Below are positions 2,789 through 54,880 of a stretch of 64,000 bases of DNA, in pieces. The position numbers were made by a program, and so were the translations under genes. The notes beneath the pieces were generated by a model that was given only the letters and a program-made list of their open reading frames with translations, was not told the origin of the DNA and searched no databases. How positions within the stretch are numbered: the first letter of the stretch is position 1; each line of letters begins with the position of its first letter. The stretch is from a virus: positions 1 to 64,000 of IMG/VR virus record IMGVR_UViG_3300020407_000003. The stretch is one strand, 5' to 3'.

Positions 2789-2840
2789 CCTTCCTACACC
2801 TTTCCTCTAGGGTGTAGGAAGGTTTTATGCCGTCTTTTTT
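2789..2840 (+). terminator. Hairpin terminator with TATGCCGTC tag
   Basis: A 12-base-pair stem (CCTTCCTACACC at 2789-2800 with its complement at 2811-2822) is followed by TTTTATGCCGTC and a run of T. It closes the tandem small-gene operon. This is one of the clearest copies of the recurring hairpin-plus-TATGCC arrangement. Confidence 0.85.
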
Positions 2841-2906
2841 TGTTTTCGTTTTTTACACCCTCAACCAATACCATGAGCAGAAGAATTAACTAAGACGAGT
2901 GTCAAT

Positions 2907-5042
2907 ATGGAAAACCCATTTGTTCTCCCTACCCAAGAGTATGGTCGAGATTTGAATATCCTGGAACGTTACTATCAGGATACCGCAAGATACCTAGCCT
3001 TAGAGACAGGTCGTTCACATGACGAGTGCTACCAGTGGGTTAAAGAAACCACCCACCCTTCAAGCGGTAAGTTGCCTTTAAAAGATCCAAAGGTGCTAAG
3101 CCTTAAACGAGACAAGCCAGGTGAGCGTGATAAGTGGGAAACTACATTCCTTGGCTACCTTCAAAAGGTGAACAACGAGAACTTAATCATCAGTCCTACA
3201 CTAGCAGCATATAGACACCCTGATCAGCACGAGTCTATACTTGCTAAGTATATCCGTAAGAACGTAGATAAGCGTAATGCTGTTAAGAAAAAGAAATTCC
3301 AGTCTACGATGGCAGGTAATGATGCTGAGGCTGGCTTTTACGACATCCTGCAATCTACATTTAAAATCAAGAACAACTCAGTAAGTGGTGGTCATGCATC
3401 AGCTTTCACACCGCTGTATAACAAATCAACCCACTCTACACTAACATCTACCTGCCGTTCGGCTACCGGGTATGCCAACGCCAACAACGAACGCTTCCTA
3501 TACGGTAACCGTCACTATTACGATGTGGATGTGGCAATCCAGAACATCATCTCAATAATCAACAATAGTGATTATAAGACAATAGCAGAAGCGGTAGAGA
3601 AATATAATCTACACGTCCCTAGTGTAGAGGAAGTCTGTGAAACGATTAAATATTCAACAGACCTATACTGGCGTAATCTGCAGTGGTCTAACCGTATCCA
3701 CAGTCTGATATCTAAACTGTCTGATATGGAACGTGTGGCTTATACTTACACGGGTAATTTCTACCATCTACGTGAATTAAACCCAGAGTTCACTAGAACG
3801 TTCCTAGATCGTTTTACTACGTGCTCAGACACCACGATAGACAACCCAGAAGCAGTCATCAGTGAGATGGATGGGGATCTTGAAGCGTATGTAGGCATTC
3901 TGCATGCTCACGATTTAAAGAATAAACCCATCTTTAAAATCAAAGAATCTGAACCTGAGACTTATGCACGCATTGCTAGTTCAGTTAACAATATCTTTGA
4001 CTTACTGAAAGAATATACAGTATTGTTTAAAGCGTTCTGGGTGACCCTCAACCCGCCCGCATCGGTAGCGGTATTACCCGATGCTATACGTCGTGGTGTA
4101 TTGGTGTCGGATACAGACTCTACCATCTTCACTGTTCAAGACTGGACTATGTGGTATAAGAATGGCGTGGTTGATTTCGATGCTAAAACAACGAGTGTAT
4201 GGGCGTTTGTTGTATACATTGCCCAGATGACTACCATGCATCTGCTTGCTTTGTTGTCATCTAACATGGGTGTGGCTAAACCTGATTTGTACAAGTTATC
4301 AATGAAGAACGAATACATGATGCCCGCGCTGTCATTGACAAGTCGTGCTAAACACTACGCCTATTACATTAGTGCGCAGGAAGGTAACGTCTATAAGAAG
4401 ATGAAAACGGATATCAAGGGGGTTGAGCTTAAATCTACTAAAGCCCCTAAAGAGATCATTGAAAAGCTACACAAGTACATCATGAAGCCGATGGACTGGA
4501 CGTTGGAAGGTAAGAAAATCCCTATTAAAGAAATGATGCAAGAAGTTGCTGACCAAGAGCACGCTATCATTGACAGCCTTAATCAGGGTAAGATCGATTA
4601 TCTAACCACCGCCGGTATTAAAGCTGCTGAGTCGTACGCTAACCCACAAGGATCTAATTACATCTATTACGATTTCTGGAATACTGTCTTTGGTCCTAAG
4701 TATGGTGAGGTACCACCACCACCGTATAGCACGGTAAAGGTATCGCTAAATGCTACGTCTAAGACAAAGGTATCAGAATGGATACGTAGTATCAAGGATG
4801 TTGAATTAGCAGAACGTCTTGAAGACTGGATGGGTAAGAATAACAAACTAGCAGGGATAACGCAGTTCTTAATCCCCATGGATGTTATTAGTACCAAAGG
4901 GATGCCTGAAGAAATAATCCAATGTATGGATATACGGAAGATTGTGTTCACCACCATGGCACCATTCTATCTGGTATTGGAGACGTATGGGGTGTATATG
5001 AAAGATAAGAATATCACTAAGCTTGTTAGCGATATCATGTAG
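2907..5042 (+). CDS. Family B DNA polymerase, C-terminal half (motifs B and C)
   Basis: This 711-residue protein carries the family B motif C as VLVSDTDSTIF (catalytic aspartates 402 and 404) and a motif-B-like segment KIKNNSVSGG (153-162, compare KxxxNSxYG). No exonuclease motif and no motif A are present. Those lie in the separate minus-strand gene at 48437-50350, which ends shortly after its motif A. The two products should assemble into one replicative polymerase. The 240 residues between motifs B and C exceed the usual spacing, so the region is diverged or carries an insertion. It is preceded by the terminator at 2789 and followed, nine bases on, by an unknown gene. Motif C is firm; motif B is a weaker match. 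Confidence 0.8.
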   Translation: MENPFVLPTQEYGRDLNILERYYQDTARYLALETGRSHDECYQWVKETTHPSSGKLPLKDPKVLSLKRDKPGERDKWETTFLGYLQKVNNENLIISPTLAAYRHPDQHESILAKYIRKNVDKRNAVKKKKFQSTMAGNDAEAGFYDILQSTFKIKNNSVSGGHASAFTPLYNKSTHSTLTSTCRSATGYANANNERFLYGNRHYYDVDVAIQNIISIINNSDYKTIAEAVEKYNLHVPSVEEVCETIKYSTDLYWRNLQWSNRIHSLISKLSDMERVAYTYTGNFYHLRELNPEFTRTFLDRFTTCSDTTIDNPEAVISEMDGDLEAYVGILHAHDLKNKPIFKIKESEPETYARIASSVNNIFDLLKEYTVLFKAFWVTLNPPASVAVLPDAIRRGVLVSDTDSTIFTVQDWTMWYKNGVVDFDAKTTSVWAFVVYIAQMTTMHLLALLSSNMGVAKPDLYKLSMKNEYMMPALSLTSRAKHYAYYISAQEGNVYKKMKTDIKGVELKSTKAPKEIIEKLHKYIMKPMDWTLEGKKIPIKEMMQEVADQEHAIIDSLNQGKIDYLTTAGIKAAESYANPQGSNYIYYDFWNTVFGPKYGEVPPPPYSTVKVSLNATSKTKVSEWIRSIKDVELAERLEDWMGKNNKLAGITQFLIPMDVISTKGMPEEIIQCMDIRKIVFTTMAPFYLVLETYGVYMKDKNITKLVSDIM

Positions 5043-5050
5043 GAGGATGT

Positions 5051-5440
5051 GTGGCAGATAATTTTCTAACATACCCTAGCCATAGAAAAGGAAGCAGTAT
5101 CAATAAAGTACTGTCTTCTTTTAAAGCAGGTCAACGAGTCATTGCTGTAGTTGATATTACAGAGGGTGAGTTCGATATGCCCTATGCAAAGGCAAATGAT
5201 GTATTGCGTATTAAAACAATTCATCTAGACGGTAGAGTAAATCCTATCGAGGTCTATCATGAGCTTGGGGCGGAAGAATATAGAACAGCACTGGAGATAC
5301 CTGAGGGTTTAGATTATAGCCTTGAGGATAAAGCGTTCTTTGTTAGCGAGCGAGAGATAGCCGCTACAGTTACCAATCCGTTTATGGATAGGCTTCCACC
5401 TACAGGCGGTCGATACGTTAACCCAGACTATCGTAAGTAA
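5051..5440 (+). CDS. Hypothetical protein downstream of DNA polymerase
   Basis: A GTG start at 5051 sits five bases after a perfect AGGAGG, which overlaps the stop of the polymerase gene, so the two are coupled. The 129-residue product looks globular and strand-rich (RVIAVVDITEGEF, VLRIKTIHLDG) and suggests a small beta-barrel fold. A polymerase accessory role is possible from position only. No family is recognised. Confidence 0.6.
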   Translation: MADNFLTYPSHRKGSSINKVLSSFKAGQRVIAVVDITEGEFDMPYAKANDVLRIKTIHLDGRVNPIEVYHELGAEEYRTALEIPEGLDYSLEDKAFFVSEREIAATVTNPFMDRLPPTGGRYVNPDYRK

Positions 5441-5490
5441 GACAGCATAACTAGGAAGATCTAGCATCGTGCTAGATCTTCCTGTATGCC
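5441..5490. terminator. Bidirectional terminator with tags on both strands
   Basis: A 14-base-pair stem (AGGAAGATCTAGCA at 5453-5466 with its complement at 5470-5483) separates two convergent genes. TATGCC follows on the plus strand (5485-5490), and GACAGCATA at 5441-5449 reads as TATGCTGTC on the minus strand. Confidence 0.8.
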
Positions 5491-5491
5491 G

Positions 5492-6580
5492 TTATATGAG
5501 GAGTTTAAGTCCCTCAAGCTCTATCTCTAAAAGATCCTTAATAACGCCGTGAGGAGCGACCAGTGTGGTCTTATCGCTACGAGCTCGTCTTAGTTCACGT
5601 TTGATTGCATTTTCAAAGTCTCTATCCTGACCTTGTTGTGTAGTTAGATACCATGATGTAGCATGTTTAATCCAAGGTAACCATATCAGCCAAAGTATCC
5701 AGCTTACTTGTCTGGTACTAACTAAACGGTTAAATGGTAACGCATCTCGCATGCATTGATCTAATCGTAATGGTACATTGTCTAACACATCATCTATAGA
5801 CGCATTCATTCTGATTAGCTCATCAATAACATCAGGGTATTCTTTATCAACGCTCCCATCAAAACTAGGAATAGCTAGAATAGGCTTAAGTGCACTTTTG
5901 GTTTGTGCTTCCCCAAGGTAGTGGCGTAAGTAACGGTTCATTAAGCTAATAGATAACTGATGATCTAACATATTTGCTAATACGTACTGATAGACAAATT
6001 GATTAGTAGAACCGCGTTGGTCTATAGGCTTAAGGTTTTCATAATGCGCCCATGTTCTGTACTGGACAGCAAGTAATGGGATGTCTACCGCAATGACACT
6101 ATAACCTACTTCTTCGTGTTGTTTTTGTCCGTCGGGGAGGTTCAAGTTTAAGTCACTGCTAGGATGATATAAGACACGCACTGCGTTGGCATTAGACCAA
6201 TCAGCAAGTAAACCATTGCTGGCCCACTGTGGTCGCGTTAACGTTGTAGCTACCAGGATGTCTACGATGTTACCACCATAAAACTCACCTTCCAAAGGTG
6301 GGTATGTAGATATCTCGGTACTAATCTGCTGACCATGTGCAATATCAGTTTCAATGTCTTCTAGGTAATCGTAATAGCGCATCATGTTCATGGCGTTCAT
6401 GGGCGGTAGGCTATCTAGAAGCTTAACAAGGGGCTGGGTGTCTTTTAAACGTCGAGGTGCGCTTATTGCCTTGGCTTTAACACGCTCTAAGGCTTTGTCT
6501 AATCCGCGTTGGGCTTGGAAAAGACCCGCAAAAACCTTTTGGTTGCGGTTAGGGGAATCTGGAGTAAAAAGCCGTTGCAT
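5492..6580 (-). CDS. Hypothetical protein, possible virion protein
   Basis: A 362-residue product starting MQRLFTPDSPNRNQ with an AGGTG ribosome site. It has a basic N-terminal region, a mixed middle (VGYSVIAVDIPLLAVQY) and a Trp-rich helix near residue 300 (WILWLIWLPWIKH) that could touch a membrane or a hydrophobic core. It is transcribed away from the chimallin gene. I recognise no domain; a virion role is only a guess from its size and place. Confidence 0.55.
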   Translation of the reverse strand: MQRLFTPDSPNRNQKVFAGLFQAQRGLDKALERVKAKAISAPRRLKDTQPLVKLLDSLPPMNAMNMMRYYDYLEDIETDIAHGQQISTEISTYPPLEGEFYGGNIVDILVATTLTRPQWASNGLLADWSNANAVRVLYHPSSDLNLNLPDGQKQHEEVGYSVIAVDIPLLAVQYRTWAHYENLKPIDQRGSTNQFVYQYVLANMLDHQLSISLMNRYLRHYLGEAQTKSALKPILAIPSFDGSVDKEYPDVIDELIRMNASIDDVLDNVPLRLDQCMRDALPFNRLVSTRQVSWILWLIWLPWIKHATSWYLTTQQGQDRDFENAIKRELRRARSDKTTLVAPHGVIKDLLEIELEGLKLLI

Positions 6581-8678: not shown

Positions 8679-8700
8679 GTTAAAATTAGCTAAGTAGTTA

Positions 8701-8737
8701 GAAAGAGGGTCTTCGTATCCTCTTTCTTTTTTATGCC
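8701..8737 (+). terminator. Terminator of the chimallin gene, with TATGCC tag
   Basis: Stem GAAAGAGG (8701-8708) pairs with CCTCTTTC (8719-8726), followed by six T and TATGCCC (8732-8738). It isolates chimallin transcription from the following endonuclease gene. Confidence 0.85.
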
Positions 8738-8763
8738 CGTTTATAATAAAATAAGGACTTTTC

Positions 8764-9390: not shown

Positions 9391-10959
9391 ATGCAGGCTG
9401 ATATCAGTGCGGCGGCTGAGCCAATTACTGCATCCATCGATCAACTTAAAGGTCCTCTTAGTTGGAACTACGAAGATCGACAAGGCGGCGTTTATCTGGC
9501 GCTAGAAGATCATGATAAGATCTTTAATAACCTGTCCAATCCCCCTATCATTGTCAATGACGTCAACACGCTGTCTCAGGAAGACAAACAGAAATTCAAT
9601 GACCTAATATCTACGCGTTACGAGGGTGATTCATTGTCTATCGTACCGTCGTGTGATTGTGGTGAATTATCAGGCGGTTATAACTTAGGTAAGGTTTGTG
9701 GTGTCTGTCAGACTGAAGTCCAGCAGTCTACAGAGAAACGCATCGAGTCTACGTTATGGATGAAAGCACCAGATGGTGTTCATGGGTTTATTAATCCTAA
9801 CGTCTGGTTGATGTTTGAGAAGTATTTCTCAAGTAAGCAGTTGTGTCTTGTCGAGTGGTTGTGTAATCCTAATCTACGTTATGATAATGAGAAGAATGAG
9901 TCATTAAACCGCTTGAAGCGTTATAACTTTAAACGTGGTTATAATAACTTCATTGAAAACTTTGACACAATAATGAATGCGCTGTATGACATATTTGCTA
10001 TACACAAGCGATTAGAGATACAAGACTTTAAAACCACGATGCGTAAGTATAGACATTGTCTATTTAGTCAATACGTACCGGTGCCTTCTAAAGTTGCATT
10101 CGTAACAGAGAAAAACGATTCAACCGTTACCTCTGATACACAGACGTCGTTAGCGATGGATGCTATACGTACTATGTCGTCTATCAAACAGGCACTACGT
10201 CCTCTTATGCCTAAGCAGTTAGAGAACCGTACCCTTAAGTGTGTTAAACAGCTTGCTGTCTATTATGAAGAAACCTACAAGACACGTCTTGCCTCTAAAG
10301 ATGGTTTCATTCGTAAACACATGATCTCAGGTAGGTTACATTATACGGCACGTGCTGTTATTGTATCGTTAAGTGAACCCCACGAGTATGATGAGCTACA
10401 TCTTCCATGGGGGTTATCGGTAGGACTACTACGTACGCACCTGACTAATAAGTTGTTAAAGTTAGGGTATACACCTCGCGCTGCCGCCTGTCTATTACAA
10501 GAGTCTATTAGCCGCTATCATCCACTTGTAGATACGCTGTTAAATGAACTTATAGACGAGTCTCCGTGTCTATCGGAAATTGCAGAACACGAACTTACCG
10601 TGCCTAAGAAGAAAGGTCTGTATGTTATCATCCAACGTAACCCATCTTTACATAGACTGTCAGCACAGTTCATGCGGGTTACTAAGATCATTAAAGACCC
10701 TAGTATCCAGACTATATCAATGTCGGTATTATCATTGACTGGTCCGAATGCTGACTTCGACGGCGACGCTTTGAATATTCTCTTAATCACCGATAAAGAG
10801 ATGATGCGTAAGATGTATAGACTGTCACCCCATTATGGCATTTTGTCGCTTCAAGAACCATCCAAGGTCTCTGGTTGCGTAGGTATGCCTAAACCGGTGG
10901 TAAGTACTATTGATAACTGGTTGAAGAAAGGCCCTAAGGTTAAAGAAGAGGCGGTCTAA
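9391..10959 (+). CDS. Non-virion RNA polymerase, beta-prime N-terminal subunit
   Basis: The 522-residue protein contains NADFDGD at 453-459, the universal motif whose three aspartates hold the catalytic magnesium in multisubunit RNA polymerases. A Cys cluster at about 88-110 (CDCG...CGVC) matches the beta-prime N-terminal zinc site. The protein stops soon after the catalytic motif, so it is only the N half; the C half is at 29491-31467. It corresponds in place and content to phiKZ gp55. The ribosome site is AAGGAG, and an early-type promoter precedes it. The phage polymerase transcribes middle and late genes in the infected cell. Confidence 0.93.
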   Translation: MQADISAAAEPITASIDQLKGPLSWNYEDRQGGVYLALEDHDKIFNNLSNPPIIVNDVNTLSQEDKQKFNDLISTRYEGDSLSIVPSCDCGELSGGYNLGKVCGVCQTEVQQSTEKRIESTLWMKAPDGVHGFINPNVWLMFEKYFSSKQLCLVEWLCNPNLRYDNEKNESLNRLKRYNFKRGYNNFIENFDTIMNALYDIFAIHKRLEIQDFKTTMRKYRHCLFSQYVPVPSKVAFVTEKNDSTVTSDTQTSLAMDAIRTMSSIKQALRPLMPKQLENRTLKCVKQLAVYYEETYKTRLASKDGFIRKHMISGRLHYTARAVIVSLSEPHEYDELHLPWGLSVGLLRTHLTNKLLKLGYTPRAAACLLQESISRYHPLVDTLLNELIDESPCLSEIAEHELTVPKKKGLYVIIQRNPSLHRLSAQFMRVTKIIKDPSIQTISMSVLSLTGPNADFDGDALNILLITDKEMMRKMYRLSPHYGILSLQEPSKVSGCVGMPKPVVSTIDNWLKKGPKVKEEAV

Positions 10960-12968: not shown

Positions 12969-13012
12969 ATGGCTGTCCCTAGGGACAGCCATCTATGCCG
13001 GATTCTTTTTTT
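12969..13012 (+). terminator. Terminator with TATGCCG tag
   Basis: A 12-base-pair hairpin without spare loop bases (ATGGCTGTCCCT at 12969-12980 and its complement to 12992) is followed by TATGCCG and then a run of seven T. Confidence 0.85.
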
Positions 13013-13917: not shown

Positions 13918-13961
13918 AGCTAGGTGGATTATCCACCTAGCTCTTTACTATTTATTTTTTT
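13918..13961 (+). terminator. Rho-independent-type terminator
   Basis: AGCTAGGTGGAT at 13918-13929 pairs with ATCCACCTAGCT ending at 13942; a T-rich run follows at 13951-13961. No clear TATGCC tag is present here. Confidence 0.8.
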
Positions 13962-13978
13962 AATGGAAGGAGTACTCC

Positions 13979-15210: not shown

Positions 15211-15218
15211 AGTACTGC

Positions 15219-15253
15219 ACCTAGAGTCATCCGACTCTAGGTGTTATGCCGTC
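15219..15253 (+). terminator. Terminator with TATGCCGTC tag
   Basis: Stem CACCTAGAGTC with GACTCTAGGTG (15219-15243) around four bases, followed by TTATGCCGTC (15244-15253). No long T run is present; the tag takes its place. Confidence 0.75.
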
Positions 15254-15454: not shown

Positions 15455-15913
15455 ATGAAAAATACATTTAAACCGATCCTTCAAGATCACAAACAAGTTA
15501 GTACTTTACTTTCGTCATTACCTAAAGGTGACGACAGTGATGCAATACATATCCAGGCCCTCAACCCTGAAACAATGAACAGAGGTCCGCAAGATGTTGT
15601 TATTATTTGCGATGCAGTAGGTTACACAGATGCGTTGATAAACGCGTTTAAAGGTTTACATGGATTATTTACTCGCCATGTTCCTCTCACTGCACGTGAA
15701 GTAATGAGTGAAATCAACAACACCGTTAATCCGGGCAAGTTGAACTTCACATTCCTACCTATTGATGCTAAAACCATCACTCAGCAGGAATTCATCGAAG
15801 CATTGCATGCTAAGGCCATTGATAGTCAGACTAAAGATCTGCAGTTAGTAACTATCGATTACTTAAAACAATTAGACGAAAAAGATATGGCATTCATTTT
15901 CAAGAGTGCCTAA
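15455..15913 (+). CDS. Hypothetical protein
   Basis: The 152-residue product has an alpha/beta look with a hydrophobic strand DVVIICDAVGYTDALINAF followed by helices, a pattern like a small Rossmann-type or receiver-like fold. No catalytic motif is identifiable. GAGG precedes the ATG. Confidence 0.55.
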   Translation: MKNTFKPILQDHKQVSTLLSSLPKGDDSDAIHIQALNPETMNRGPQDVVIICDAVGYTDALINAFKGLHGLFTRHVPLTAREVMSEINNTVNPGKLNFTFLPIDAKTITQQEFIEALHAKAIDSQTKDLQLVTIDYLKQLDEKDMAFIFKSA

Positions 15914-15916
15914 TAG

Positions 15917-15949
15917 ATGGGGTGGGGTGACCTGCCCTATCTATGCCGT
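15917..15949 (+). terminator. Weak hairpin with TATGCCGT tag
   Basis: GATGGGG near 15917-15923 can pair with CCCTATC near 15935-15941 around a G-rich loop, and TATGCCGT follows at 15942-15949. The stem is weaker than at other sites, but the tag is intact. Confidence 0.5.
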
Positions 15950-16026
15950 AAAGGACACGCTATCAAAACTTACATGCTAGCGTTACTTTATGAAACCCTT
16001 TAACCTAAATTTCAAGGAGCTAATCT

Positions 16027-20890: not shown

Positions 20891-20910
20891 TCATCACGGT
20901 TAATTATTTA

Positions 20911-20940
20911 AAAGGTAGGCGTTGGCCTACCTTTTATGCC
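20911..20940 (+). terminator. Terminator of ssb with TATGCC tag
   Basis: AAAGGTAGGC (20911-20920) pairs with GCCTACCTTT (20925-20934), then TATGCCC at 20935-20941. Confidence 0.85.
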
Positions 20941-21016: not shown

Positions 21017-22579
21017 ATGAAAATCACTATTGCACAGCGCAAGCCAAACGGAATAGCGTCTGTACTGACTAGCCATGGTGATCGTAGTCATGAGTGGATG
21101 TTAAGCCCGTATGAGCGTACGTCCTTTCAAAACCCTGATAACATTTTCAACAATGCCAATGCGTACTTAGAAAAACTAGATAAAGAAACGCAGCATCGCA
21201 TTTGGTCCATCTATGACGATATCTATTTAGCATTTGAAGAAATAGAAAACATAGATGTACTTCAAGAAACAGTAACGGAACTTGTAAACCGGTTATACTC
21301 ATTTATTGACGTAGATGCGCTGCGTCTATGGTGTAACCTCTACGGTGTGTATAACATGCCGCCTGATCTACAAGATACGTATAGTGAGGGCTTTACACGA
21401 GAACTTACTTATCTAAGAAGTGACTATAAAGGTCTATTGTTCTTAACTACCGCATTGCGTTACATGGTACCTATTTGGGGTGAATACATTAAACGTAATA
21501 AGGCAGAGATAGGTACAGCATATAAGGAATACATGGCAACAGCGTTAATAGGTCAGTCTGATTTATACGAGACACCTGAGATCGCCCGACTAATCGAATA
21601 CATCGAAGCACGTATCGGTAACCAAGATACATTGAAGCCTACTACCATACATGGTGGTCTAGGTAGCGTGCAGCAGACAGATTGGTTATTGTCACGTACT
21701 CTACTAGGTCGTATTGCTGTAGCGGAAACTGATAAACCCGATGGGTCTATCATCTCTACTATCTATAACGTTATTACCAATCTCATTGAGAACATGGATA
21801 AAACGTTTGGTTCAGGTGGGATGATATTAGACATAGATCGTTATCGACCTAAGCGTGGTGAGGAGCGTGAGGATAATGATTCAGTTGCAGAGAACCTGCA
21901 AGTGTCGCAGCGTGTATCAGATGTACATCCTATCATAGCCGAGACCTATGTATCTAAGTACGTGGACATGGCTAAGGAGCTTTCTCCAACAGTACCGATA
22001 CGGTTGGTAAAGGAATGTGTAGTAAGGTTAACCAAAGCGGACGATTTAGACATTGAACCGTTCAGAGTTAACCTGGTGGCGATAATTGCATCAGAGGCAG
22101 TCTCTATACGTTCTCTGCATTCACTACACCACCCGGAGTTATTGCGACTAATAGGTGTTGCACAGGCTATATTGATCCATCATGGGTTTGATGATCTAGC
22201 CCATGTGTTAACAGCTCGTTGTCAGCCGCAAGACCCAACCATTATTAAAGGTGATACGTATAGTAATAATACGCGTTCACGACTTACTAAAGACAATGTA
22301 GATGCGTTGATGAGACTTTATCCACATTACAAGTTAAAGACTCGTCCAGGTGAACGTAAGAAAACAGATTGCGAGGGTGTTGAATTTATAGAGGGATTCA
22401 ATAAACATACCCAGGCGTATGATTGGTTCTACAATTCACCTGACACATTGTTACAAAAGTCTACCCCGCCAGCAGTAAATGGCAAGCCGTTATTGATCTC
22501 TACAGATATTAGAAACCAACTGGCTAGTATGCTTCTAACATTCTTAGATCGACCGGTACAGTCTGAGCAGACTGTTTAA
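21017..22579 (+). CDS. Non-virion RNA polymerase fifth subunit candidate (gp68-like)
   Basis: The 520-residue, mostly helical protein matches phiKZ gp68 in length and in place: it precedes two mid-size genes and then the beta C and beta-prime C genes, as gp68 precedes gp69, gp70, gp71-73 and gp74. Gp68 is the extra subunit that the phiKZ non-virion polymerase needs for promoter-specific transcription. No sigma-like motif is readable. Sharing an exact promoter repeat with the beta C gene supports a common complex. The identity is by synteny and size, not by motif. Confidence 0.6.
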   Translation: MKITIAQRKPNGIASVLTSHGDRSHEWMLSPYERTSFQNPDNIFNNANAYLEKLDKETQHRIWSIYDDIYLAFEEIENIDVLQETVTELVNRLYSFIDVDALRLWCNLYGVYNMPPDLQDTYSEGFTRELTYLRSDYKGLLFLTTALRYMVPIWGEYIKRNKAEIGTAYKEYMATALIGQSDLYETPEIARLIEYIEARIGNQDTLKPTTIHGGLGSVQQTDWLLSRTLLGRIAVAETDKPDGSIISTIYNVITNLIENMDKTFGSGGMILDIDRYRPKRGEEREDNDSVAENLQVSQRVSDVHPIIAETYVSKYVDMAKELSPTVPIRLVKECVVRLTKADDLDIEPFRVNLVAIIASEAVSIRSLHSLHHPELLRLIGVAQAILIHHGFDDLAHVLTARCQPQDPTIIKGDTYSNNTRSRLTKDNVDALMRLYPHYKLKTRPGERKKTDCEGVEFIEGFNKHTQAYDWFYNSPDTLLQKSTPPAVNGKPLLISTDIRNQLASMLLTFLDRPVQSEQTV

Positions 22580-25343: not shown

Positions 25344-25393
25344 GACGGCATAAGTAGAGGGGTCAAACCCTCTACTTGTCTTTTTTTGCCGTC
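25344..25393. terminator. Bidirectional terminator flanked by inverted tags
   Basis: AAGTAGAGGG pairs with CCCTCTACTT (25352-25377), followed by a seven-T run and TGCCGTC. On the left, GACGGCATA (25344-25352) is the same tag on the minus strand, so the outer parts can also pair. It lies between convergent genes. Confidence 0.9.
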
Positions 25394-31486: not shown

Positions 31487-34048
31487 GTGCCAACTCAGTA
31501 TTACGCACATGTGGATGTAAAAAGTCACCATGTACGGTTCCACACCATGATGCCAGAGTGTAAACGCGCCCTCTATGATTATTGCGAGCGGTTAATCGAT
31601 TATGACCAAGGGTACGATCCTCGTACCCACAGTTACTATAAGATACCTAAGCGTGTCTTTGCCGCATCACCGCATGATCGTAGAGAGTTGCGTTTCCATA
31701 TTAACCAGTATAAAGATATACTTACACACCTTAACGTAAAGGGAATCAAAACCGAACAATTATTAATTGAGCATTTTACTCCGGTAGAAGGTGATGATGT
31801 TACTAGTTTTGTAATAGATGACGACATTCAACCTTACGAGTACCAATTGCCAGTTATTGACCATTTCCTTACACCGGGTGTAAGTAAGATAACCAATGCG
31901 CCAACGGGTAGTGGTAAGATGCAACCATTAGACAGTCTAATTAAGATACCTGGTGGTTGGAAACGAATGGGAGATATACAGGTAGGAGATAAGATCACAG
32001 CACCTGACGGACACGACACTTTTGTAAATGGCGTATTCCCTCAAGGGAAAATGCAGATTTATAAGGTTACGTTTGCAGATGGTCGGTCAACTGAAGTTGG
32101 AGGTGAGCATCTTTGGAAGATGTTTATTGCTAACTACCATGATGTCGATAAGCGGTGGCGTATAGGTGATACCTTTGAAATGATGCGTGAACTTAAACGC
32201 TCACAACCTAGAGTGTATATACCGCTAATTCAACCTGAACAAGGTAAGTACAAAGAACTACCCATTCACCCATGGACCCTCGGCGCTATGTTGGGTGACG
32301 GTTGCTTTACTACCACGACTCCCACATTCACCACTACCTACGTGGATGTCTTCCATAAGCTGTCAACTCTGTTACCAGAACACGTTACATTAAGTTGTGG
32401 TGCTAACGGGCGAACTATTGGTTTTGGAAATAGTCATGTGTTTAGAGATTACTTCAAGCACTTAGGACTATGGGGTTGTCGTTCCGCTGATAAATTCATC
32501 CCTAAGATTTATTTAGAAGCTTCCGTAGAGCAGCGTTACGCGTTACTTCAGGGTCTGATGGATACCGATGGAGGTATTGATGTCAATTCATCCATGGACT
32601 ACTCAAGCGTATCTGAACAACTAGCCAAAGACGTTCAATACTTAGTCAGAAGTCTAGGAGGTATTGCAAAAATATCTAAACGTCAAACCTACTACACCTA
32701 CAAGGGAGAAAAGAAACCTGGACAGCCTAGCTTCAGGGTTAACATTCGCCATCCTAAACCATCTTCACTCTTTACTGTACCACATAAGCTCGAAAGGGCT
32801 AATGATGATAATCAGTATTCTAAAGGATTGAAGTTAAAGGTTGTAAGTGTAGAACCATCCCGAATGGCTGAAGCACAGTGTATATCGGTTACACACAAAG
32901 ATCATCTTTATGTGACTGATGATTTTGTGGTTACACACAACACCATGATGTCTTTATATTCCACATGGATGATAAAGAAAAGAACCATCTTGGTTGTTCC
33001 TGCTAAGTACATCACCGAAGGTAAATGGATTGGTGATATCACTAAGACATTAAATGTACCTAGGGAAAAACTGTGTGTGGTGAAAGGATCTAAAGCCATG
33101 CGGACGCTTATCGATTTAGGATTAGCAGATGCCTTGGAATATGATTTTATCATTATATCAGCGACTACCATGTACAACTTCTACAAGGCGTATGAGGAAG
33201 GAAAGCTGGAGGAAGAAGGGTATAACTGCGACCCCGATGAATTGTACACGGTTACTAAAACAGGACTACGCGTAATAGATGAAGTACATGAGAACTTCCA
33301 TCTCAACTTTACGCAGGATCTGTACGGTCATGTGGCTAAGACGATTTACATGTCGGCGACGTTAGTTTCTGATAATGCTTTCATTAATTCAATGTTAGAA
33401 GTTGCCTATCCTGTTGGCGAACGTATAACACCGGATTATGATGGCAAATATATCGCCTGTACAGCCCTCACATACCGTTGTAACAAGGTAGAGCTACTAT
33501 CGCATAAGCGACGTAAGATGTACTCTCAGATGCTCTTTGAGGCGTCTATATTGAAGAAGAAGTTTCGTAGTGAAGCTTACGCTGAAATGATCTATGATAT
33601 CGTGCTTAATGAATACATCAGTATCCGTGAGCCGGGGCAAAAGATGATGATCTTTGCTGATACCATAGAGATGTGTACCTATCTAACATCGTTTATAAAG
33701 CCACGTTTGACTGACTTAACTGTCAATAGGTTTGTGGGTGAGGATCCAGATGAGTATCTTTATGAATCTGATGTAATCATTACTACACCTAAGTCTGCAG
33801 GCACTGCGGTAGATATCAAAGGGCTTAAAGTTACCTTACTGACATCTGCAATTGGCTCACGTCAATTAAACGCGCAGATACTGGGTCGTTTGAGAAAGCT
33901 AAGAGGCTTTAAAGATAACGTACCACGTTTCTTTTACTTAGTTTGCGAAGATATAGATTCTCATGTTAAGTACCATGAAAGAAAACTTGCTACTTTCTCA
34001 GATAAAGTTAAAACTCACCGTACGCTGCAAACTGCGTATGTGCTATAA
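31487..34048 (+). CDS. Superfamily 2 (UvsW-like) helicase interrupted by an intein
   Basis: GTG start after AAAGGAGG. The 853-residue precursor has PYEYQLPVIDHFL (Q-motif region), then Walker A APTGSGK at 138-144, which is cut there by a 341-residue intein and resumes with TMMSLYS. After excision the host protein has 512 residues with motif II IDEVH (about 598-602 of the precursor), motif III SATL, and motif VI-like NAQILGRLRKLRG. The closest known style is T4 UvsW, which unwinds branched DNA and R-loops. It probably helps recombination-dependent replication. It follows RNAP beta-prime C by 19 bases and must splice to bind ATP. Confidence 0.88.
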   Translation: MPTQYYAHVDVKSHHVRFHTMMPECKRALYDYCERLIDYDQGYDPRTHSYYKIPKRVFAASPHDRRELRFHINQYKDILTHLNVKGIKTEQLLIEHFTPVEGDDVTSFVIDDDIQPYEYQLPVIDHFLTPGVSKITNAPTGSGKMQPLDSLIKIPGGWKRMGDIQVGDKITAPDGHDTFVNGVFPQGKMQIYKVTFADGRSTEVGGEHLWKMFIANYHDVDKRWRIGDTFEMMRELKRSQPRVYIPLIQPEQGKYKELPIHPWTLGAMLGDGCFTTTTPTFTTTYVDVFHKLSTLLPEHVTLSCGANGRTIGFGNSHVFRDYFKHLGLWGCRSADKFIPKIYLEASVEQRYALLQGLMDTDGGIDVNSSMDYSSVSEQLAKDVQYLVRSLGGIAKISKRQTYYTYKGEKKPGQPSFRVNIRHPKPSSLFTVPHKLERANDDNQYSKGLKLKVVSVEPSRMAEAQCISVTHKDHLYVTDDFVVTHNTMMSLYSTWMIKKRTILVVPAKYITEGKWIGDITKTLNVPREKLCVVKGSKAMRTLIDLGLADALEYDFIIISATTMYNFYKAYEEGKLEEEGYNCDPDELYTVTKTGLRVIDEVHENFHLNFTQDLYGHVAKTIYMSATLVSDNAFINSMLEVAYPVGERITPDYDGKYIACTALTYRCNKVELLSHKRRKMYSQMLFEASILKKKFRSEAYAEMIYDIVLNEYISIREPGQKMMIFADTIEMCTYLTSFIKPRLTDLTVNRFVGEDPDEYLYESDVIITTPKSAGTAVDIKGLKVTLLTSAIGSRQLNAQILGRLRKLRGFKDNVPRFFYLVCEDIDSHVKYHERKLATFSDKVKTHRTLQTAYVL
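31919..32941 (+). mobile_element. Class 3 intein with LAGLIDADG endonuclease
   Basis: The insert begins with Met (MQPLDSLIKIPGG), not Cys or Ser, and ends VVTHN before Thr of the host protein. It carries the class 3 signature: Trp in block B (EHLW, intein residue 66), Cys in block F (QCISV, residue 321) and Thr as first extein residue. In class 3 inteins the block F cysteine replaces the N-terminal nucleophile. LGAMLGDGCF and LLQGLMDTDGGID are the two LAGLIDADG motifs, so the homing function looks intact. Confidence 0.92.
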
Positions 34049-34219: not shown

Positions 34220-35044
34220 ATGTTGTATCATCTTGTTAATGGTGAGCAGGTTTCAGATCCTGAACCGTTCCCAGGTGAAGACATCTGTGTAATGATGATA
34301 GACAGTGACGTTTGCAAAATAGAAACCGTACCCTTTAATTCATTATTTACCATTGATAACTATAACGGCCTCTATACGGTTATAAAAGTAAATGAGGTAG
34401 CCGCTATCTCCCAGGTAGAAGGTATTGCTATACCTGATAAAATTTACGATGTCATGCAGTTAGATGATCTAGTTACTGTACTTTACATGTCGGGTAATGA
34501 AGTAAGGTATAGAAAACTAATTATAAGTGACTCTTATTCCGAATGTATGTTGCTTAAAGACGGGTTGGTGGCGCTAAACAACCAACCGTTTCCTACTTTA
34601 GAAACAGTAGATAGCGTTAGAGTATATAAGCGATTAAATCATGATGGCTTTACGTCACAAAGCTTTAAGTTATCTACTAAAGAACGAATCAGCGATAACC
34701 ACCCATTGCGTCCACGTGGGATAAATTCAATCACGACCTATCAGGATGGTTATATAGTAGATGTTGAGTTTACTAATGGAATCAAGGTTTATAGAAGAGA
34801 ATTGATTGTTTACCCTAACCATAAAACTAATAAAGTACATGCAAGTATGGAGGAGATGGTGTCGTGGCAGTCTGACTACATATATAAATCTAATTTAGCT
34901 TCTGTTAAGGCGCACGGTATGGCGGTGTTATTCACCTATGCAGATATAGATGCGAAAGGAAATATCAATACTAATTCATTTAGACTAGAATATGTCATAG
35001 AAGGTCAGGTATTTGTAAAAGAGTTTAATACAACAACGTCTTGA
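34220..35044 (+). CDS. Hypothetical protein
   Basis: The start at 34220 is chosen for the AAGGAG ahead of it; an in-frame ATG at 34199 lies in the hairpin tail. The 274-residue product appears all-beta, with repeated strand-turn-strand units (DDLVTVLYMSGNEVRYRKL, DGYIVDVEFTNGIKVYRREL, YVIEGQVFVKEF). It could be a repeat beta-propeller or sandwich. Function unknown. Confidence 0.6.
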   Translation: MLYHLVNGEQVSDPEPFPGEDICVMMIDSDVCKIETVPFNSLFTIDNYNGLYTVIKVNEVAAISQVEGIAIPDKIYDVMQLDDLVTVLYMSGNEVRYRKLIISDSYSECMLLKDGLVALNNQPFPTLETVDSVRVYKRLNHDGFTSQSFKLSTKERISDNHPLRPRGINSITTYQDGYIVDVEFTNGIKVYRRELIVYPNHKTNKVHASMEEMVSWQSDYIYKSNLASVKAHGMAVLFTYADIDAKGNINTNSFRLEYVIEGQVFVKEFNTTTS

Positions 35045-35092
35045 CGGCATAGAGGAAGAGCTAGCGTAGCGCTAGCTCTTCCTCGTTATGCG
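35043..35092. terminator. Bidirectional terminator flanked by tags
   Basis: GAGGAAGAGCTAGC pairs with GCTAGCTCTTCCTC (35052-35084) around five bases. TATGCG and a T run follow on plus; GACGGCATA (35043-35051) gives TATGCCGTC on minus. It lies between convergent genes. Confidence 0.9.
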
Positions 35093-42260: not shown

Positions 42261-42677
42261 ATGATGACGTTACCTGCCTTAGATAGTATTGGGGCCCAGA
42301 TAGCGTTGACAGAGGCTTACGATCACACTTACGGTATCTTCAACTATGATGGCATCGATTATAATCCTTTAAGTATTGTAGCCATGCATCCGGTAGAGGA
42401 TACCCTTAAAGTGGGGTTGAAACCTTTCATGATTAAACGTTTTAGGATGTATGACATTCACAAACGTTATGGCTTGTCGTTAACGGAGCTTCTTGCCTTA
42501 CCTCGTGATACGGTTACTGATATATTTGATGATGCTGCTAAAGCCATTGCTGAAGAAGAAGAGCAGATGCAGGAGATTCAAAATGAAATGCGTGAAGCTA
42601 TTAACGAGCAGAAGGCAGCTAAGCGTAAAACCATGCGAGCTCAGAAACAAAAGAAAGTAAAGAAGGCTGGGAAGTAA
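42261..42677 (+). CDS. Hub-associated protein, probably made as a -1 frameshift fusion
   Basis: As a separate gene it would begin at ATG 42261, but no ribosome site precedes it, unlike nearly every gene here. Its frame is open back to 42132 and reads like protein (YYPRSVQTEQEDKRAQRG), which joins the upstream gene after LEIEQLF. The body has DYNPLSIVAMHPVED and the end is a charged helix with a Lys-rich tail. In many myophages the gene in this position encodes a tail assembly factor. A terminator overlaps its stop. Confidence 0.55.
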   Translation: MMTLPALDSIGAQIALTEAYDHTYGIFNYDGIDYNPLSIVAMHPVEDTLKVGLKPFMIKRFRMYDIHKRYGLSLTELLALPRDTVTDIFDDAAKAIAEEEEQMQEIQNEMREAINEQKAAKRKTMRAQKQKKVKKAGK

Positions 42678-42695
42678 TTCCTGGCCTTATGCCGT
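42663..42695 (+). terminator. Terminator over the stop codon, with TATGCCGT tag
   Basis: AAGGCTGGGAA pairs with TTCCTGGCCTT (42663-42688, with a small mismatch) and TATGCCGT follows at 42688-42695. The stop codon is in the loop. Confidence 0.75.
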
Positions 42696-42755
42696 TTCGT
42701 CTATAATTACGTCGTGGTGTAACTATATAGAGGTAAAAGGTGAGATAATAAAACA

Positions 42756-44798: not shown

Positions 44799-45530
44799 AT
44801 GCGTTATTTGACCATTATACTTGTTATCCTTCTATGGGGGTGTGGGGAATCTATCCCACCCCCTGATACAGATAAGACCGAGCCTTTACCTGTGGAGATA
44901 GTTGAAGAGGTGGAGGTTGTTGAGGTCGAAGAGCCTGTTGAAGAACCCGATCCTATTGCGGAAGAAAAGGATGAGATTAAAGAGAACACGTACCAAGTAG
45001 TAGATGCCAGCAAGTTAAAGGGTTTGCAATCTATTAAATACGATCTTTTCTTTAAATCAGCCATGAGCTGGCATATGCCTCAGATAGACTGGCGTTGGCT
45101 CAAAGCTCAATGTTGGCAGGAGAGTCGTTTTAATCCTAAAGCGGTTAGTCCGGTCGGGGCTGGCGGTGTGTGTCAGTTTATGCCAGGGACGTTTGATGGG
45201 GTTCCCGAATCTGTTAAACAAGGTAGGGATGTGTGGGATGCACGTACTAACATCGAAGCTGGTGCGTGGTATATGAATACCCGCTATAACTTCTGGACGT
45301 CACCCCGCCCTCAGTTAGACAGGATATGGTTAGCCCAGGCGTGTTATAATGCTGGTTGTGGTCATGTACTTAATGCACAAAAGGCATGTGGTAATCCAAG
45401 TGGTTACAATGACATTATCAAGTGCTTACCGCAAATAACCGGTAAGCACTCTAAAGAGACTATTAGTTATGTAATATTAATTGATGGTTTTAGAAAGGAA
45501 TTAGGGGTGCCTGACCCTATCAGTTATTAG
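44799..45530 (+). CDS. Lipoprotein lytic transglycosylase
   Basis: AGGAGG precedes the ATG. The first 15 residues form a lipoprotein signal peptide ending LLWGC, with Cys15 as lipid anchor. An acidic Glu/Val/Pro linker (about 20-62) follows. The catalytic domain (about 85-243) has the SLT set: CWQESRFNPKAVSPVGAGG with catalytic Glu108, VCQFMPGTF (usual GLMQ-MP), NIEAGAWYM and QACYNAGCG. It cleaves peptidoglycan between sugars. A lipid anchor is unusual for a phage lysin and suggests envelope-bound action rather than a free endolysin. The cysteines at 105, 125 and later could form disulphides in the periplasm. Confidence 0.88.
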   Translation: MRYLTIILVILLWGCGESIPPPDTDKTEPLPVEIVEEVEVVEVEEPVEEPDPIAEEKDEIKENTYQVVDASKLKGLQSIKYDLFFKSAMSWHMPQIDWRWLKAQCWQESRFNPKAVSPVGAGGVCQFMPGTFDGVPESVKQGRDVWDARTNIEAGAWYMNTRYNFWTSPRPQLDRIWLAQACYNAGCGHVLNAQKACGNPSGYNDIIKCLPQITGKHSKETISYVILIDGFRKELGVPDPISY

Positions 45531-45557
45531 GAGGCTTCGGCCTCCTTTTATGCCGTC
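45529..45557 (+). terminator. UUCG-loop terminator with TATGCCGTC tag
   Basis: AGGAGGC-TTCG-GCCTCCT (45529-45546) is followed by TTTATGCCGTC (to 45557). The hairpin overlaps the stop codon of the transglycosylase gene by one base. Confidence 0.88.
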
Positions 45558-47028: not shown

Positions 47029-47070
47029 CCACGACCAGTCCCTCCAGGCTGGTCGTGGTTTTATGCCGTC
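47029..47070 (+). terminator. Terminator with TATGCCGTC tag
   Basis: CCACGACCAG (47029-47038) pairs with CTGGTCGTGG (47049-47058), then TTTTATGCCGTC to 47070. Confidence 0.88.
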
Positions 47071-48372: not shown

Positions 48373-48378
48373 AGTAAC

Positions 48379-48427
48379 GCATAAAAACCCTACCTCTACC
48401 CGCGATAGGTAGAGGTAGGCTATGCCC
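48379..48427. terminator. Bidirectional terminator with tags on both strands
   Basis: CCTACCTCTACC pairs with GGTAGAGGTAGG around four bases (to 48419). TATGCCC then a T run follow on plus, and CGCATA near 48378-48383 gives TATGCG on minus, followed there by TTACTTT. It lies between convergent genes. Confidence 0.88.
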
Positions 48428-50350: not shown

Positions 50351-50422
50351 GGGTGAAGGCTCCTTAATTAACACGGCTATACTATTTCTATGACGTGTTA
50401 TTAATAAAATATAGGATTGACC
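50351..50422. promoter_or_regulatory. Divergent promoter gap
   Basis: A 72-base gap between divergent genes holds CACG...CGTG arms about CTATACTATTTCTATGA and an AT-rich run (TTATTAATAAAATATAGGA). Each direction has its own ribosome site. It is probably two back-to-back promoters, but no consensus element is exact. Confidence 0.4.
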
Positions 50423-51796: not shown

Positions 51797-51797
51797 C

Positions 51798-53099: not shown

Positions 53100-53109
53100 G
53101 GACCCCAAC

Positions 53110-53550
53110 ATGAAACAATTAAAGAAGTCCGCCATGCTAATTGGTGAATTTACGCAACTATTCAACGGTTGTTCAATTGCACCACAAGAGCGTAAGGCGG
53201 TAATGACGCTAGGTATTGCTCGATATGTAGGCTACGAGTGTGAACTGCCTACTAGTGAAGTACATAACACACGTACGTACTTCCTTGAAACCTACAAACA
53301 TGAAGTGGATGAATTCCTATCATCGCTTAATGAACAGTTTGTTATCGATGTGGCGGCGGCAAGTGATCTGGCATTTAAAATCTGGACAACGCGCTATAAC
53401 CTAGTGTTCCATCCTCGTTCTTTATCACTTGAAACGTTGATGTCAATGCATAGTAGCAAAACGTTCAGCGACGTTGAATACAAAGAGAAGTGGAATACCT
53501 TCGCCGTACGTCTTGGTTCAACGCTGGCAAACTTCACCCAAGCGGAGTAA
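53110..53550 (+). CDS. Hypothetical protein between virion genes
   Basis: The 146-residue helical product begins MKQLKKSAMLIGEFTQLF. It is coupled to its neighbours by gaps of a few bases. A virion or assembly role is likely from context only. No domain is recognised. Confidence 0.55.
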   Translation: MKQLKKSAMLIGEFTQLFNGCSIAPQERKAVMTLGIARYVGYECELPTSEVHNTRTYFLETYKHEVDEFLSSLNEQFVIDVAAASDLAFKIWTTRYNLVFHPRSLSLETLMSMHSSKTFSDVEYKEKWNTFAVRLGSTLANFTQAE

Positions 53551-53553
53551 ACT

Positions 53554-54825
53554 ATGTTAGTACCTTTAGACGATCATGCGCTAATAGATGACGAACGTGT
53601 TGTTACGAGTCTTACACAACAAGCGGTGGAAGGTATTTGTTTGTTAAAAGAAATAACAAACAGACTAAACAAGGAAGGAGCGTCTCAAGAGATAGCCATC
53701 ATGATTGAGTCTATCGATCCAGAGGCCCTCCCTGAACGTTACCCACGTGAAAGCTTTACACAGGACCCATCACCTACCAACTTAGCAGTTGCGCTTGAGA
53801 GCGCCGTACAGGCTGCTTTAAAGGCGGTGAACAAAGCAGCGAAGGCTGTCATTGAATTTATTGTTAAACTTTATAACGCCGTTCTTGAGGCTATCTCTAA
53901 ACTATTTGATAAAGTAGCCAGGGTAGTCAAAGGTCAAAAGCGTGCTGATGAGTTACAAGCCAAAAGCAATGAGATGGGTGCGGAGTTAGACGGTGAAGCC
54001 ATTGAAGGCTATAAGCCGGAAGACGGTAGCTACCAGTTAAACGACCGTGTTGAATTTGACGATGGTGAATACAAGCTCACTTTACATTACGACATTATTA
54101 AAGAAGCATTGTCTCCTCTAGTAGTTCGTGTGTTTGAGCAAAACTTGACACCAGGTATCATTCAACAAAACATCATTGCCGCCTTACAAGATGCTAAGAG
54201 CACTAATGCGCGTTACGAGCAGTTTGTAGAAGTTGTTAATAACTTTAATGACGATCCAACTGATGCGACTTTGCAAGAGTTAGTAAGCTGGCTACGTAAT
54301 GAAGAAGAGCGTGAACATTTCCATGATATTAAACCATTAGCAGCTTTGGTAGATCAAGATAAAGATCTACATAAAGACTTACCTAATCTAATGGGTCATG
54401 GTTTGGGTCCGGTTATCACCTTGTTAAATCAAGAAGATAAAATGCGTTACGAGGGTGAAGCGGCAACTGACCCTATTTTTAAACGCATGGTGCGTAGTCG
54501 CTACGACCTTGAGCAACTTTCTGCGTTTGGTGATTTTGAAAAACAAATCAAGAAGCTAGACAAAGGTATCAATGGTATCCATAAATCCACCTTTACATTA
54601 GTTGAGCGTGGATGGTCACCTGAGGTCAGAGAGAAAGTACAACAGTCAGTGAATATCTATCTAGAGTATTTCAGAAACCGCAGTCGTTTCAATACCCAGA
54701 TCGTTACTACATGCGCTGTTGTGGTTAATGCGTTAACACGCTTTACACATGCTCAGCAACAGTTTGAAAGTAAACTCTACGGTGAACTACTCACTGTAAA
54801 AGAACTTTACAAAATGGCCACTTAG
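53554..54825 (+). CDS. Inner-body-like virion protein, family member 3 (diverged)
   Basis: The 423-residue product carries AVALESAVQ at 78-86 (Ala-X-Glu cut pattern after Glu82), followed by ALKAVNKAAKAVIEFIVKLY and NAVLEAISKLFDKVARVVKG, a basic amphipathic helix pair as in the other members. The N-terminal part is acidic. The remainder (EALSPLVVRVFEQNLTPG...) is helical. The MEIAAGLES block of the other members is not seen, so it is a more distant relative. Confidence 0.6.
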   Translation: MLVPLDDHALIDDERVVTSLTQQAVEGICLLKEITNRLNKEGASQEIAIMIESIDPEALPERYPRESFTQDPSPTNLAVALESAVQAALKAVNKAAKAVIEFIVKLYNAVLEAISKLFDKVARVVKGQKRADELQAKSNEMGAELDGEAIEGYKPEDGSYQLNDRVEFDDGEYKLTLHYDIIKEALSPLVVRVFEQNLTPGIIQQNIIAALQDAKSTNARYEQFVEVVNNFNDDPTDATLQELVSWLRNEEEREHFHDIKPLAALVDQDKDLHKDLPNLMGHGLGPVITLLNQEDKMRYEGEAATDPIFKRMVRSRYDLEQLSAFGDFEKQIKKLDKGINGIHKSTFTLVERGWSPEVREKVQQSVNIYLEYFRNRSRFNTQIVTTCAVVVNALTRFTHAQQQFESKLYGELLTVKELYKMAT

Positions 54826-54880
54826 ACAGCATAAAAGCCTAACCACCCGGCCTCACGGCTAGGTGGTTAGCTTATGCCGT
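54825..54880. terminator. Bidirectional terminator with tags on both strands
   Basis: GCCTAACCACC pairs with GGTGGTTAGC across an inner GCCTCACGGC-type loop (about 54838-54871). TATGCCGT follows on plus (54873-54880), and GACAGCATA (54825-54833) is the minus-strand tag. It lies between convergent genes. Confidence 0.85.

Follow-up and report, generated by a model that had tools for sequence, protein, structure and literature searches.

A TATG tag behind terminator hairpins of phiKZ-like jumbo phages, a probable strand-specific stop signal

The DNA analysed here, called the window throughout, is a stretch of 64 kb out of the 76.6-kb viral record IMGVR_UViG_3300020407_000003. The record encodes a divergent family-B DNA polymerase (PF20286), chimallin (PF25677) and RNA polymerase beta-like subunits, and its source is therefore a phiKZ-like, nucleus-forming jumbo phage. 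Hairpins past its stop codons are mostly followed by a short tag with the core TATG. Position, strand logic and recurrence of this tag in relatives, as well as the scarcity of T-runs close to tagged stems, are direct observations. We consider it probable, at about 0.68, that the tag forms the 3' half of an intrinsic terminator specific to its strand, in which it replaces the U-tract, and that this terminator is used by the late non-virion RNA polymerase (nvRNAP) resident in the nucleus. Past the stop codon, such a terminator would comprise a GC-rich hairpin, a mostly-T spacer of 0-5 nt and then TATG(C/T)CGT(C/T). Judged from sequence, transcription would stop at this element, nvRNAP would be its reader, and release would take place near the CC located 6-9 nt from the stem.

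The Tag in the Window Record

Terminator ends were called automatically as hairpins of -10 kcal/mol or better that start at most 60 nt from a stop codon and lie by no more than half within another gene; TATGY was scored from 8 nt before the stem end to 16 nt after it. In the 76.6-kb record, where a hairpin common to two strands counts once per strand, this yields 26 ends with a GC-rich hairpin directly past the stop codon and outside genes. TATGY is present on the 3' side of 20 of them and on the 5' side of none (0/26). The association of hairpins and tag put forward in a first-pass annotation of the window thus holds for most called ends, but terminators without the tag exist. Two of the six untagged ends, 25347 (plus strand) and 73887, show the form TTGCCGTC, and nothing like the tag is found at 13918, 16648, 28594 and 62739. 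Counterparts of the 13918 terminator in L009, L011, L012 and L014, with orthology by position only, also look untagged. Three tagged sites, 2826, 42688 and 69717, were overlooked by the calling rule.

All twelve TATGCC sites named in the annotation were recovered, each of them hairpin-adjacent in a separate scan (Table 1). Among its variants, TATGCG at 35087 on the plus strand is likewise confirmed next to a hairpin; TTGCCGTC also exists at 25386, yet it contains no TATG. The tag or a variant occurs on both strands at all five convergent junctions (5.4, 25.3, 35.0, 48.4 and 54.8 kb), as had been claimed, and gene calls reveal no others in the window. Both strands of the 5.4-kb junction are also tagged in L008, L011 and L014. 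The called hairpin 25347-25382 includes part of the minus-strand tag 25344-25352, and the sister-contig counterpart (L149) of the hairpin at 42664 has a folding energy of -15.3 kcal/mol. Beyond the annotated stretch, the final 12.6 kb of the record contain TATGCC after the hairpins 64196, 64483, 69693, 72818 and 76192, and TTTGCCGTC after hairpin 73887. Weaker hairpins at 64225 and 64525 overlap or come after these tags and are untagged themselves.

As a bare word, TATGCC is not significantly enriched in the window (35 observed, 29.96 expected; 22 of 100 shuffles reach 35), and this candidate signal was rejected; the claim therefore rests on position. A modest excess is seen for TATGCCGTC with one mismatch allowed (19 vs 10.4), and all seven exact copies of TATGCCGTC in the record are hairpin-adjacent (7/7). 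With start codons excluded, C follows intergenic TATG of the record in 23/24 hairpin-adjacent cases vs 10/48 elsewhere (p = 5e-10). In phiKZ this difference is less pronounced (31/99 vs 32/234, p = 4e-4), and in the PhiPA3 stretch it does not reach significance (8/17 vs 3/18, p = 0.08).

Recurrence in the phiKZ Family

Starting from an alignment of seven DNA polymerases, 218 relatives were found in IMG/VR, and the best 80 of 218 were used. Our pool consists of the window record, phiKZ, PhiPA3, SNUABM_54, FLC9, LucasX, pVa-21, 201phi2-1 and the IMG/VR loci; AR9, EL, SPN3US, Goslar, pTD1, FishSpeaker, Staphylococcus phage PB50 and T4 stand outside it. The pool gave 760 ends, or 624 from 79 sources once repeated hairpins were removed, corresponding to about 529 hairpins, about 95 of which serve both strands.

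TATGY occurs at the 3' stem base of 251 of the 624 ends, compared to a mean of 36.6 and a maximum of 54 in 300 first-order Markov shuffles, and the longer TATGYC is found at 176 ends where 8 are expected. In the aligned consensus, the stem is followed by YTT, TATG, C, C, G and T, with T or C as the final base. The distance from the last G-C pair to the T of TATG is 0-5 nt in 242/302. Only 12 of the 624 ends carry TATGY at the 5' stem base. This asymmetry bears on a further explanation, by which a separate phage protein binds the tag in the DNA and acts as polymerase block, DNA mark, or replication or packaging aid. A conserved intergenic 9-mer could well be bound, and it forms an inverted repeat at convergent junctions; however, its orientation tracks the hairpin of the transcribed strand itself, which a DNA mark need not do, and we regard such a site as highly improbable.

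The share of tagged ends is 20/26 in the window record, 12/17 in PhiPA3, 8/14 in LucasX, 6/12 in 201phi2-1, 6/12 in FLC9, 45/114 in phiKZ and 6/18 in SNUABM_54. Low shares are found in pVa-21 (2/8), Goslar (2/9), FishSpeaker (3/16), pTD1 (2/15), SPN3US (1/14), EL (0/9), AR9 (1/28), PB50 (0/10) and T4 (0/11). On a DNA polymerase tree of 54 rows, the tag is distributed across most of the main clade; poor in tags are, among others, the groups SPN3US/pVa-21 and EL/pTD1/FishSpeaker and single rows such as L081 (0/5), L034 (1/8), L057 (1/11) and L093 (1/7), and L040 (0/4), L066 (0/5) and L067 (0/5) are also tag-free. The tag spans much of the phiKZ family. A single terminator code for the whole DNA polymerase family was considered and rejected in view of EL, SPN3US, pTD1, FishSpeaker, Goslar and pVa-21. 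In the tag-poor phages EL (L102) and FishSpeaker (L106), many hairpins are long and very stable, down to about -30 kcal/mol; those of tag-poor SPN3US (L103) are shorter, several with T-runs.

In G001, a sister contig of 190 kb, TATGYCGTY was sought irrespective of genes or hairpins, which gave 27 matches, with 6 for the reversed pattern. A hairpin of -8 kcal/mol or better adjoins 25 of the 27, including all 25 copies of TATGCCGTY; the two exceptions both read TATGTCGTC. At random positions, the baseline is 37/1000 in the window record and 56/400 within 40 short, hairpin-rich sister stretches. Hairpin-adjacent are also 8 of the 13 inspected matches in G003 (16 listed) and both inspected matches in G002 (the double tag described below; 34 in the genome). 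Genome-wide counts of TATGYCGTY and the reversed pattern on both strands are 34/6 in G002, 16/0 in G003, 39/10 in PhiPA3, 28/3 in FLC9, 27/9 in 201phi2-1, 15/7 in phiKZ, 22/11 in SNUABM_54, 17/15 in LucasX, 21/13 in Goslar, 7/5 in pVa-21, 6/9 in G014, 5/3 in pTD1, 4/5 in FishSpeaker, 3/12 in SPN3US, 2/6 in EL, 3/1 in AR9, 0/4 in PB50 and 3/8 in T4.

Identical or near-identical units of hairpin plus tag occur two to three times per genome (L136, L141, L161 and L153, L160 in G001; L162, L168 in G003), as if terminator cassettes copy or recombine.

Replacement of the U-Tract and Spacing

The suggestion that the tag may stand in for the T-run is borne out by the larger sample: a run of six T starting at most 6 nt from the stem is found in 10/251 tagged ends and 54/373 untagged ends (p = 1e-5). 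The U-tract directly after the stem, a hallmark of bacterial terminators, is thus rare at tagged ends. The sixth base of TATGYC lies 6-9 nt beyond the last G-C pair in 132/176. In bacterial intrinsic terminators, RNA is released at 6-9 nt beyond the stem.

Runs of at least six T also occur farther downstream, approximately 12-13 nt beyond the stem at 2826, 12994, 13918, 35087 and 48421 of the window (12-17 nt in the window clade). Too distant for a normal U-tract, such a run is possibly an element for the virion polymerase; runs 7-24 nt beyond the stem are present in some ends and are not clearly class-specific.

Alternatively, the tag may be a signal for RNA processing or protection: an RNase of phage or host would cleave, at UAUGCC, a transcript that extends past the hairpin, or a protein would bind hairpin and UAUGCC together and so shield the 3' end. 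Strand specificity and hairpin adjacency would fit this equally well, and processing of early transcripts is one possible source of middle phiKZ transcripts (PMC10612078). Left unexplained, though none of these points is decisive, are the identity of the core with the promoter word, the scarcity of proximal T-runs and the release-like spacing. We rate processing as unlikely compared to termination.

AR9 is a relative with polymerases of the same kind. Its RNA-seq drop-off is strong at predicted terminators (PMC5312081), and termination at such sites by this type of polymerase is therefore plausible.

Strand and Orientation with Regard to Late Promoters

Late promoters of phiKZ consist of TATG, with the G as start site, and are recognized specifically by nvRNAP in vitro (PMC4666361). 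The tag contains the same core. It may consequently be asked whether it is a late promoter placed just past each terminator, at which the next gene restarts, perhaps by polymerase recycling. At tandem junctions of the window record, the tag lies 30-210 nt ahead of the next gene, in line with such a function.

Gene arrangement argues otherwise. Across the pool, 133/268 convergent ends and 112/345 tandem ends are tagged (11/624 are without a classified neighbour); the two strands of one hairpin are non-independent in these counts, and loci from the DNA polymerase search are oriented with the polymerase as plus. On the minus strand, tags occur at 80/124 convergent vs 12/37 tandem ends (p = 7e-4), and on the plus strand at 53/144 vs 100/308, without a convergent excess (p = 0.39). 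The pooled excess is carried by minus-strand ends alone, so that more frequent tagging of convergent ends was rejected as a general rule. Convergent ends are at least as often tagged as tandem ends, i.e., they are not depleted. A promoter predicts depletion, and neither strand shows it, which argues against this function. The first-pass annotation had favoured termination or 3'-end formation over a promoter, and with the near-absence of tags on the 5' side the larger sample agrees.

A late promoter should also lie upstream of the gene it serves and point to it. The 112 tandem tags do point toward a gene, but 133 of the 251 tags point into the 3' end of an opposing gene. At L008 3558/3640, two facing hairpins enclose TATGCCGTCACGGCATA in the order hairpin 1, TATGCCGTCACGGCATA, hairpin 2, with one tag per strand. 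Moreover, the published phiKZ late promoter is described as having no conservation beyond TATG (PMC4666361) and needs no hairpin, whereas the tag extends into YCGTY (C follows TATG in 23/24 cases) and is hairpin-bound (25/27 in G001). The sole TATG ahead of phiKZ gene 119, which we take as P119L, reads TATGTAG and has no adjacent hairpin, one of -7 kcal/mol being far upstream; a 201phi2-1 site in matching gene order, a candidate promoter by position, is likewise TATGTAG without an adjacent hairpin.

Totalled over six genomes or parts of genomes, the density of TATGYC falls from 3.80/kb in sense terminator zones to 1.01/kb in divergent intergenic DNA and 0.34/kb in coding DNA, although FLC9 (3.04/kb, from 2 matches) and SNUABM_54 reach about 3/kb in short divergent stretches. 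Tandem sense DNA of the window record outside the zones holds ten copies, of which five are start codons and three belong to tagged terminators missed by the calling rule. Taken together, we think it improbable that the tag is a promoter; the TATG core which it shares with the phiKZ late promoter may be a mechanistic clue rather than a sign of a competing function.

TATG followed by ACGTGTT, directly or after AG, is found without a hairpin at 50389-50399 of the window and at 70815-70827 of the record (L018), 28 and 68 nt ahead of gene starts. These two sites are candidate late promoters of this phage. The word GACGTGT is over-represented in intergenic DNA (6 vs 0.3 expected) and adjoins TATG at two sites.

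The Presumed Reader of the Tag

The virion polymerase of phiKZ transcribes early genes and is kept outside the nucleus, and nvRNAP acts inside (PMC10612078, PMC13282480). In the early-rich regions of phiKZ (198.5-264 and 0-12.1 kb), whose bounds were set post hoc after the data had been seen, 5/36 ends are tagged compared to 40/78 elsewhere (p = 1.6e-4). Of 29 early-promoter-like motif matches (three places double-counted), 14 fall in these regions, which make up 28% of the phiKZ genome. Units whose last gene is structural end in a tag in 17/29 cases, non-structural ones in 28/85 (p = 0.017).

At the first convergent junction past the DNA polymerase gene, 42 of the 54 tree rows could be scored (7 of odd length and 5 without a junction were set aside). 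The minus strand is tagged in 32/42 and the plus strand in 19/42, with 15 vs 2 discordant rows (p = 0.002); at least two pairs of rows are near-duplicates, and a loose tag rule was applied here. The minus gene is the structural gene gp52 in phiKZ, with matching annotations in PhiPA3, pTD1 and FishSpeaker and orthology presumed from position in the other rows. Late service is also suggested by a tandem double tag, TATGCCGTCTATGCCGT(C/T). In G001 and G004 it comes after a gene identified as that of the major head protein (28% and 26% identity to phiKZ gp120, respectively); in G001 and G002 it stands directly 3' of a hairpin. We infer that the tag serves the late nvRNAP, as three tests, each with a weakness, point to this enzyme.

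A possible reading device is GP123, a beta-like nvRNAP subunit, which binds non-template TATG at late promoters in the open promoter (PMC12809450). We compared 28 homologues, from 26 of 30 searched records plus phiKZ and 201phi2-1. Seven of the 14 named pocket positions, namely Ser144, Phe151, His/Tyr185, His331, Ser334, Phe/Tyr406 and Gln466, are kept in 23 phages, phiKZ and 22 others with 24-66% overall identity, some of them mutually close; this seven-position signature was picked post hoc, after the alignment had been seen. In pVa-21, SPN3US, EL, pTD1 and FishSpeaker, at least one of the seven is broken. None of the 28 has lost Phe151 or His331. The residue at position 406 stacks on T-3/A-2 (PMC12809450); it is Phe/Tyr in 23/23 phages of the kept group and Trp/His in the five. 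Tagged ends amount to 145/339 in the kept group and 8/62 in the broken group (Mann-Whitney by phage, p = 0.002), and to 1/28 in AR9, which has a different promoter code. This link between tag and pocket is equally expected of a promoter; it is the convergent geometry that separates the two.

As a tentative proposal, which we hold to be somewhat less than an even bet, one word and one pocket would both start and stop nvRNAP: contact of GP123 with TATG beside an RNA hairpin would trigger termination, and promoter and terminator codes would co-evolve. In the likeliest mechanism, the elongating nvRNAP would encounter TATG in the exposed non-template strand, GP123 would grip it with its late-promoter pocket, the enzyme would pause, and the hairpin would complete the release. 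For the early virion polymerase, T-rich terminators would take this role.

Several observations weigh against this interpretation of the tag and its reader, in addition to the missing plus-strand excess and the post hoc choices mentioned above. Ends without the tag are common (69/114 in phiKZ), several tagged sites also have a T-run, either near or 12-17 nt off, and SNUABM_54 shows no zone excess of TATGYC (2.13 in zones, 2.80 in divergent and 2.66 in tandem sense DNA). phiKZ units with the early motif TATATTAC are tagged in 6/24 cases vs 39/90 without it, which is the expected direction at p = 0.16. As to the pocket, variation at the remaining seven named positions is seen in both groups, and in FishSpeaker and pTD1 only position 406 deviates from the signature. 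Since the five altered phages fall into two clades, they amount to about two independent events, which overall divergence confounds; a kept signature goes with few tags in Goslar (2/9) and L081 (0/5). Finally, the pocket is incomplete in the transcribing complex (PMC12809450), and its re-use therefore needs a lobe movement at the pause.

Comparison with Known Systems

With bacterial intrinsic terminators, the tagged ends share the GC-rich hairpin past the stop codon, a strand-specific 3' element and the spacing of 6-9 nt; they differ in that TATGYCGTY mostly replaces the U-tract. In terminators with DNA uptake sequences, the repeated word itself reportedly forms the stem. The phage tag is usually located 3' of a stem, stems differ at most sites, and some hairpins recur within sister contigs. 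Common to both systems is a repeated word tied to terminators (PMC1852404). The nvRNAP late promoter of phiKZ has the same four-base core (PMC4666361, PMC12809450), from which the tag is set apart by its hairpin, its extension and its direction at convergent junctions. The proposed mechanism resembles the promoter-like pausing that retained sigma70 causes in E. coli (PMC7876045), in that a promoter-reading part grips a promoter-like word during elongation; in the phage, the reader would be a beta-like subunit and the outcome would be termination with a hairpin. RNA polymerase III termination (PMC8531034) also works via the non-template strand, there on oligo-dT, compared to a mixed word plus hairpin in the phage.

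In the literature searched, we found no description of a hairpin with a promoter-like word in place of the U-tract, although a prior description is possible. Termination by nvRNAP is not addressed in the main texts of two papers on nvRNAP structure, PMC7618050 and PMC12809450, and of the 2026 jumbo-phage review PMC13282480, which contain no word beginning with "terminat-"; the three uses in PMC4666361 all concern the stopping of infection or of a reaction.

Source Phage and Features of the Window

When the first 24 kb of the window were compared with the "phages" collection, no phage gave a near-identity match. Among the matches listed, the top match of the DNA polymerase to a named phage has 42.1% identity, and metagenomic sisters are represented by nine loci with DNA polymerase identities of 81-100%. 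A DNA helicase-like gene (853 aa) at 31487-34048 of the window shows a LAGLIDADG_3 match at residues 349-403 and thus possibly contains an intein. Coordinates are collected in Table 1.

Table 1. Tagged and untagged hairpins and polymerase-related genes of the window, and double tags of three relatives (tag positions are given after the tag).
Position	Strand	Feature	Remark
2789-2834	+	Hairpin 2789-2822, tag TATGCCGTC 2826-2834	Ahead of DNA polymerase gene
5441-5493	both	Bidirectional terminator, hairpin 5452-5484	Plus tag TATGCCGTT 5485-5493; minus tag TATGCTGTC 5441-5449
8697-8737	+	Hairpin, T-run, then TATGCCC 8732	Past chimallin gene
12969-12999	+	Hairpin 12969-12992, TATGCCG 12994	T-run farther downstream
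15217-15253	+	Hairpin 15217-15244, TATGCCGTC 15245-15253	
15913-15950	+	Hairpin 15913-15944, TATGCCGTA 15942-15950	Called stem overlaps tag
20909-20940	+	Hairpin 20909-20936, TATGCCC 20935	Called stem overlaps tag
25344-25393	both	Bidirectional terminator, called hairpin 25347-25382	Minus tag TATGCCGTC 25344-25352; plus variant TTTGCCGTC 25385-25393
35043-35092	both	Bidirectional terminator, hairpin 35052-35084	Minus tag TATGCCGTC 35043-35051; plus variant TATGCG 35087
42664-42696	+	Hairpin about 42664-42687, TATGCCGTT 42688-42696	Hairpin by eye
45528-45557	+	Hairpin 45528-45550, TATGCCGTC 45549-45557	
47029-47070	+	Hairpin 47029-47058, TATGCCGTC 47062-47070	
48378-48426	both	Bidirectional terminator, hairpin 48389-48419	Minus variant TATGCG 48378-48383; plus tag TATGCCC 48421
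54825-54881	both	Bidirectional terminator, hairpin 54839-54870	Minus tag TATGCTGTC 54825-54833; plus tag TATGCCGTA 54873-54881
13918-13965	+	Untagged terminator hairpin	T-run about 12 nt beyond stem
9391-10959	+	RNA polymerase beta-like subunit (phrog_2987)	nvRNAP type from gene order shared with phiKZ
29491-31467	+	RNA polymerase beta-like subunit (phrog_3015)	nvRNAP type from gene order shared with phiKZ
21017-22579	+	phrog_3209 protein	In the place of phiKZ gp68 (sigma-like nvRNAP subunit), by gene order only
G001:138307-138324		Double tag	L154
G002:182229-182246		Double tag	L175
G004:162304-162321		Double tag	L177

Implications

If one word and one pocket both start and stop nvRNAP, the two phage polymerases would differ in their stop codes, with T-rich signals read by the virion enzyme and TATGYCGT by the nuclear enzyme. 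The tag may be a route to separate stop signals for two polymerases in one infection. It would also provide a simple means of finding operon ends in metagenomic jumbo phages. A stop word that copies the start word would make the stopping of nvRNAP directly testable, the enzyme being already purified and solved. Should the pocket mechanism hold, it would represent a new way for a multisubunit polymerase to recognize where to stop.

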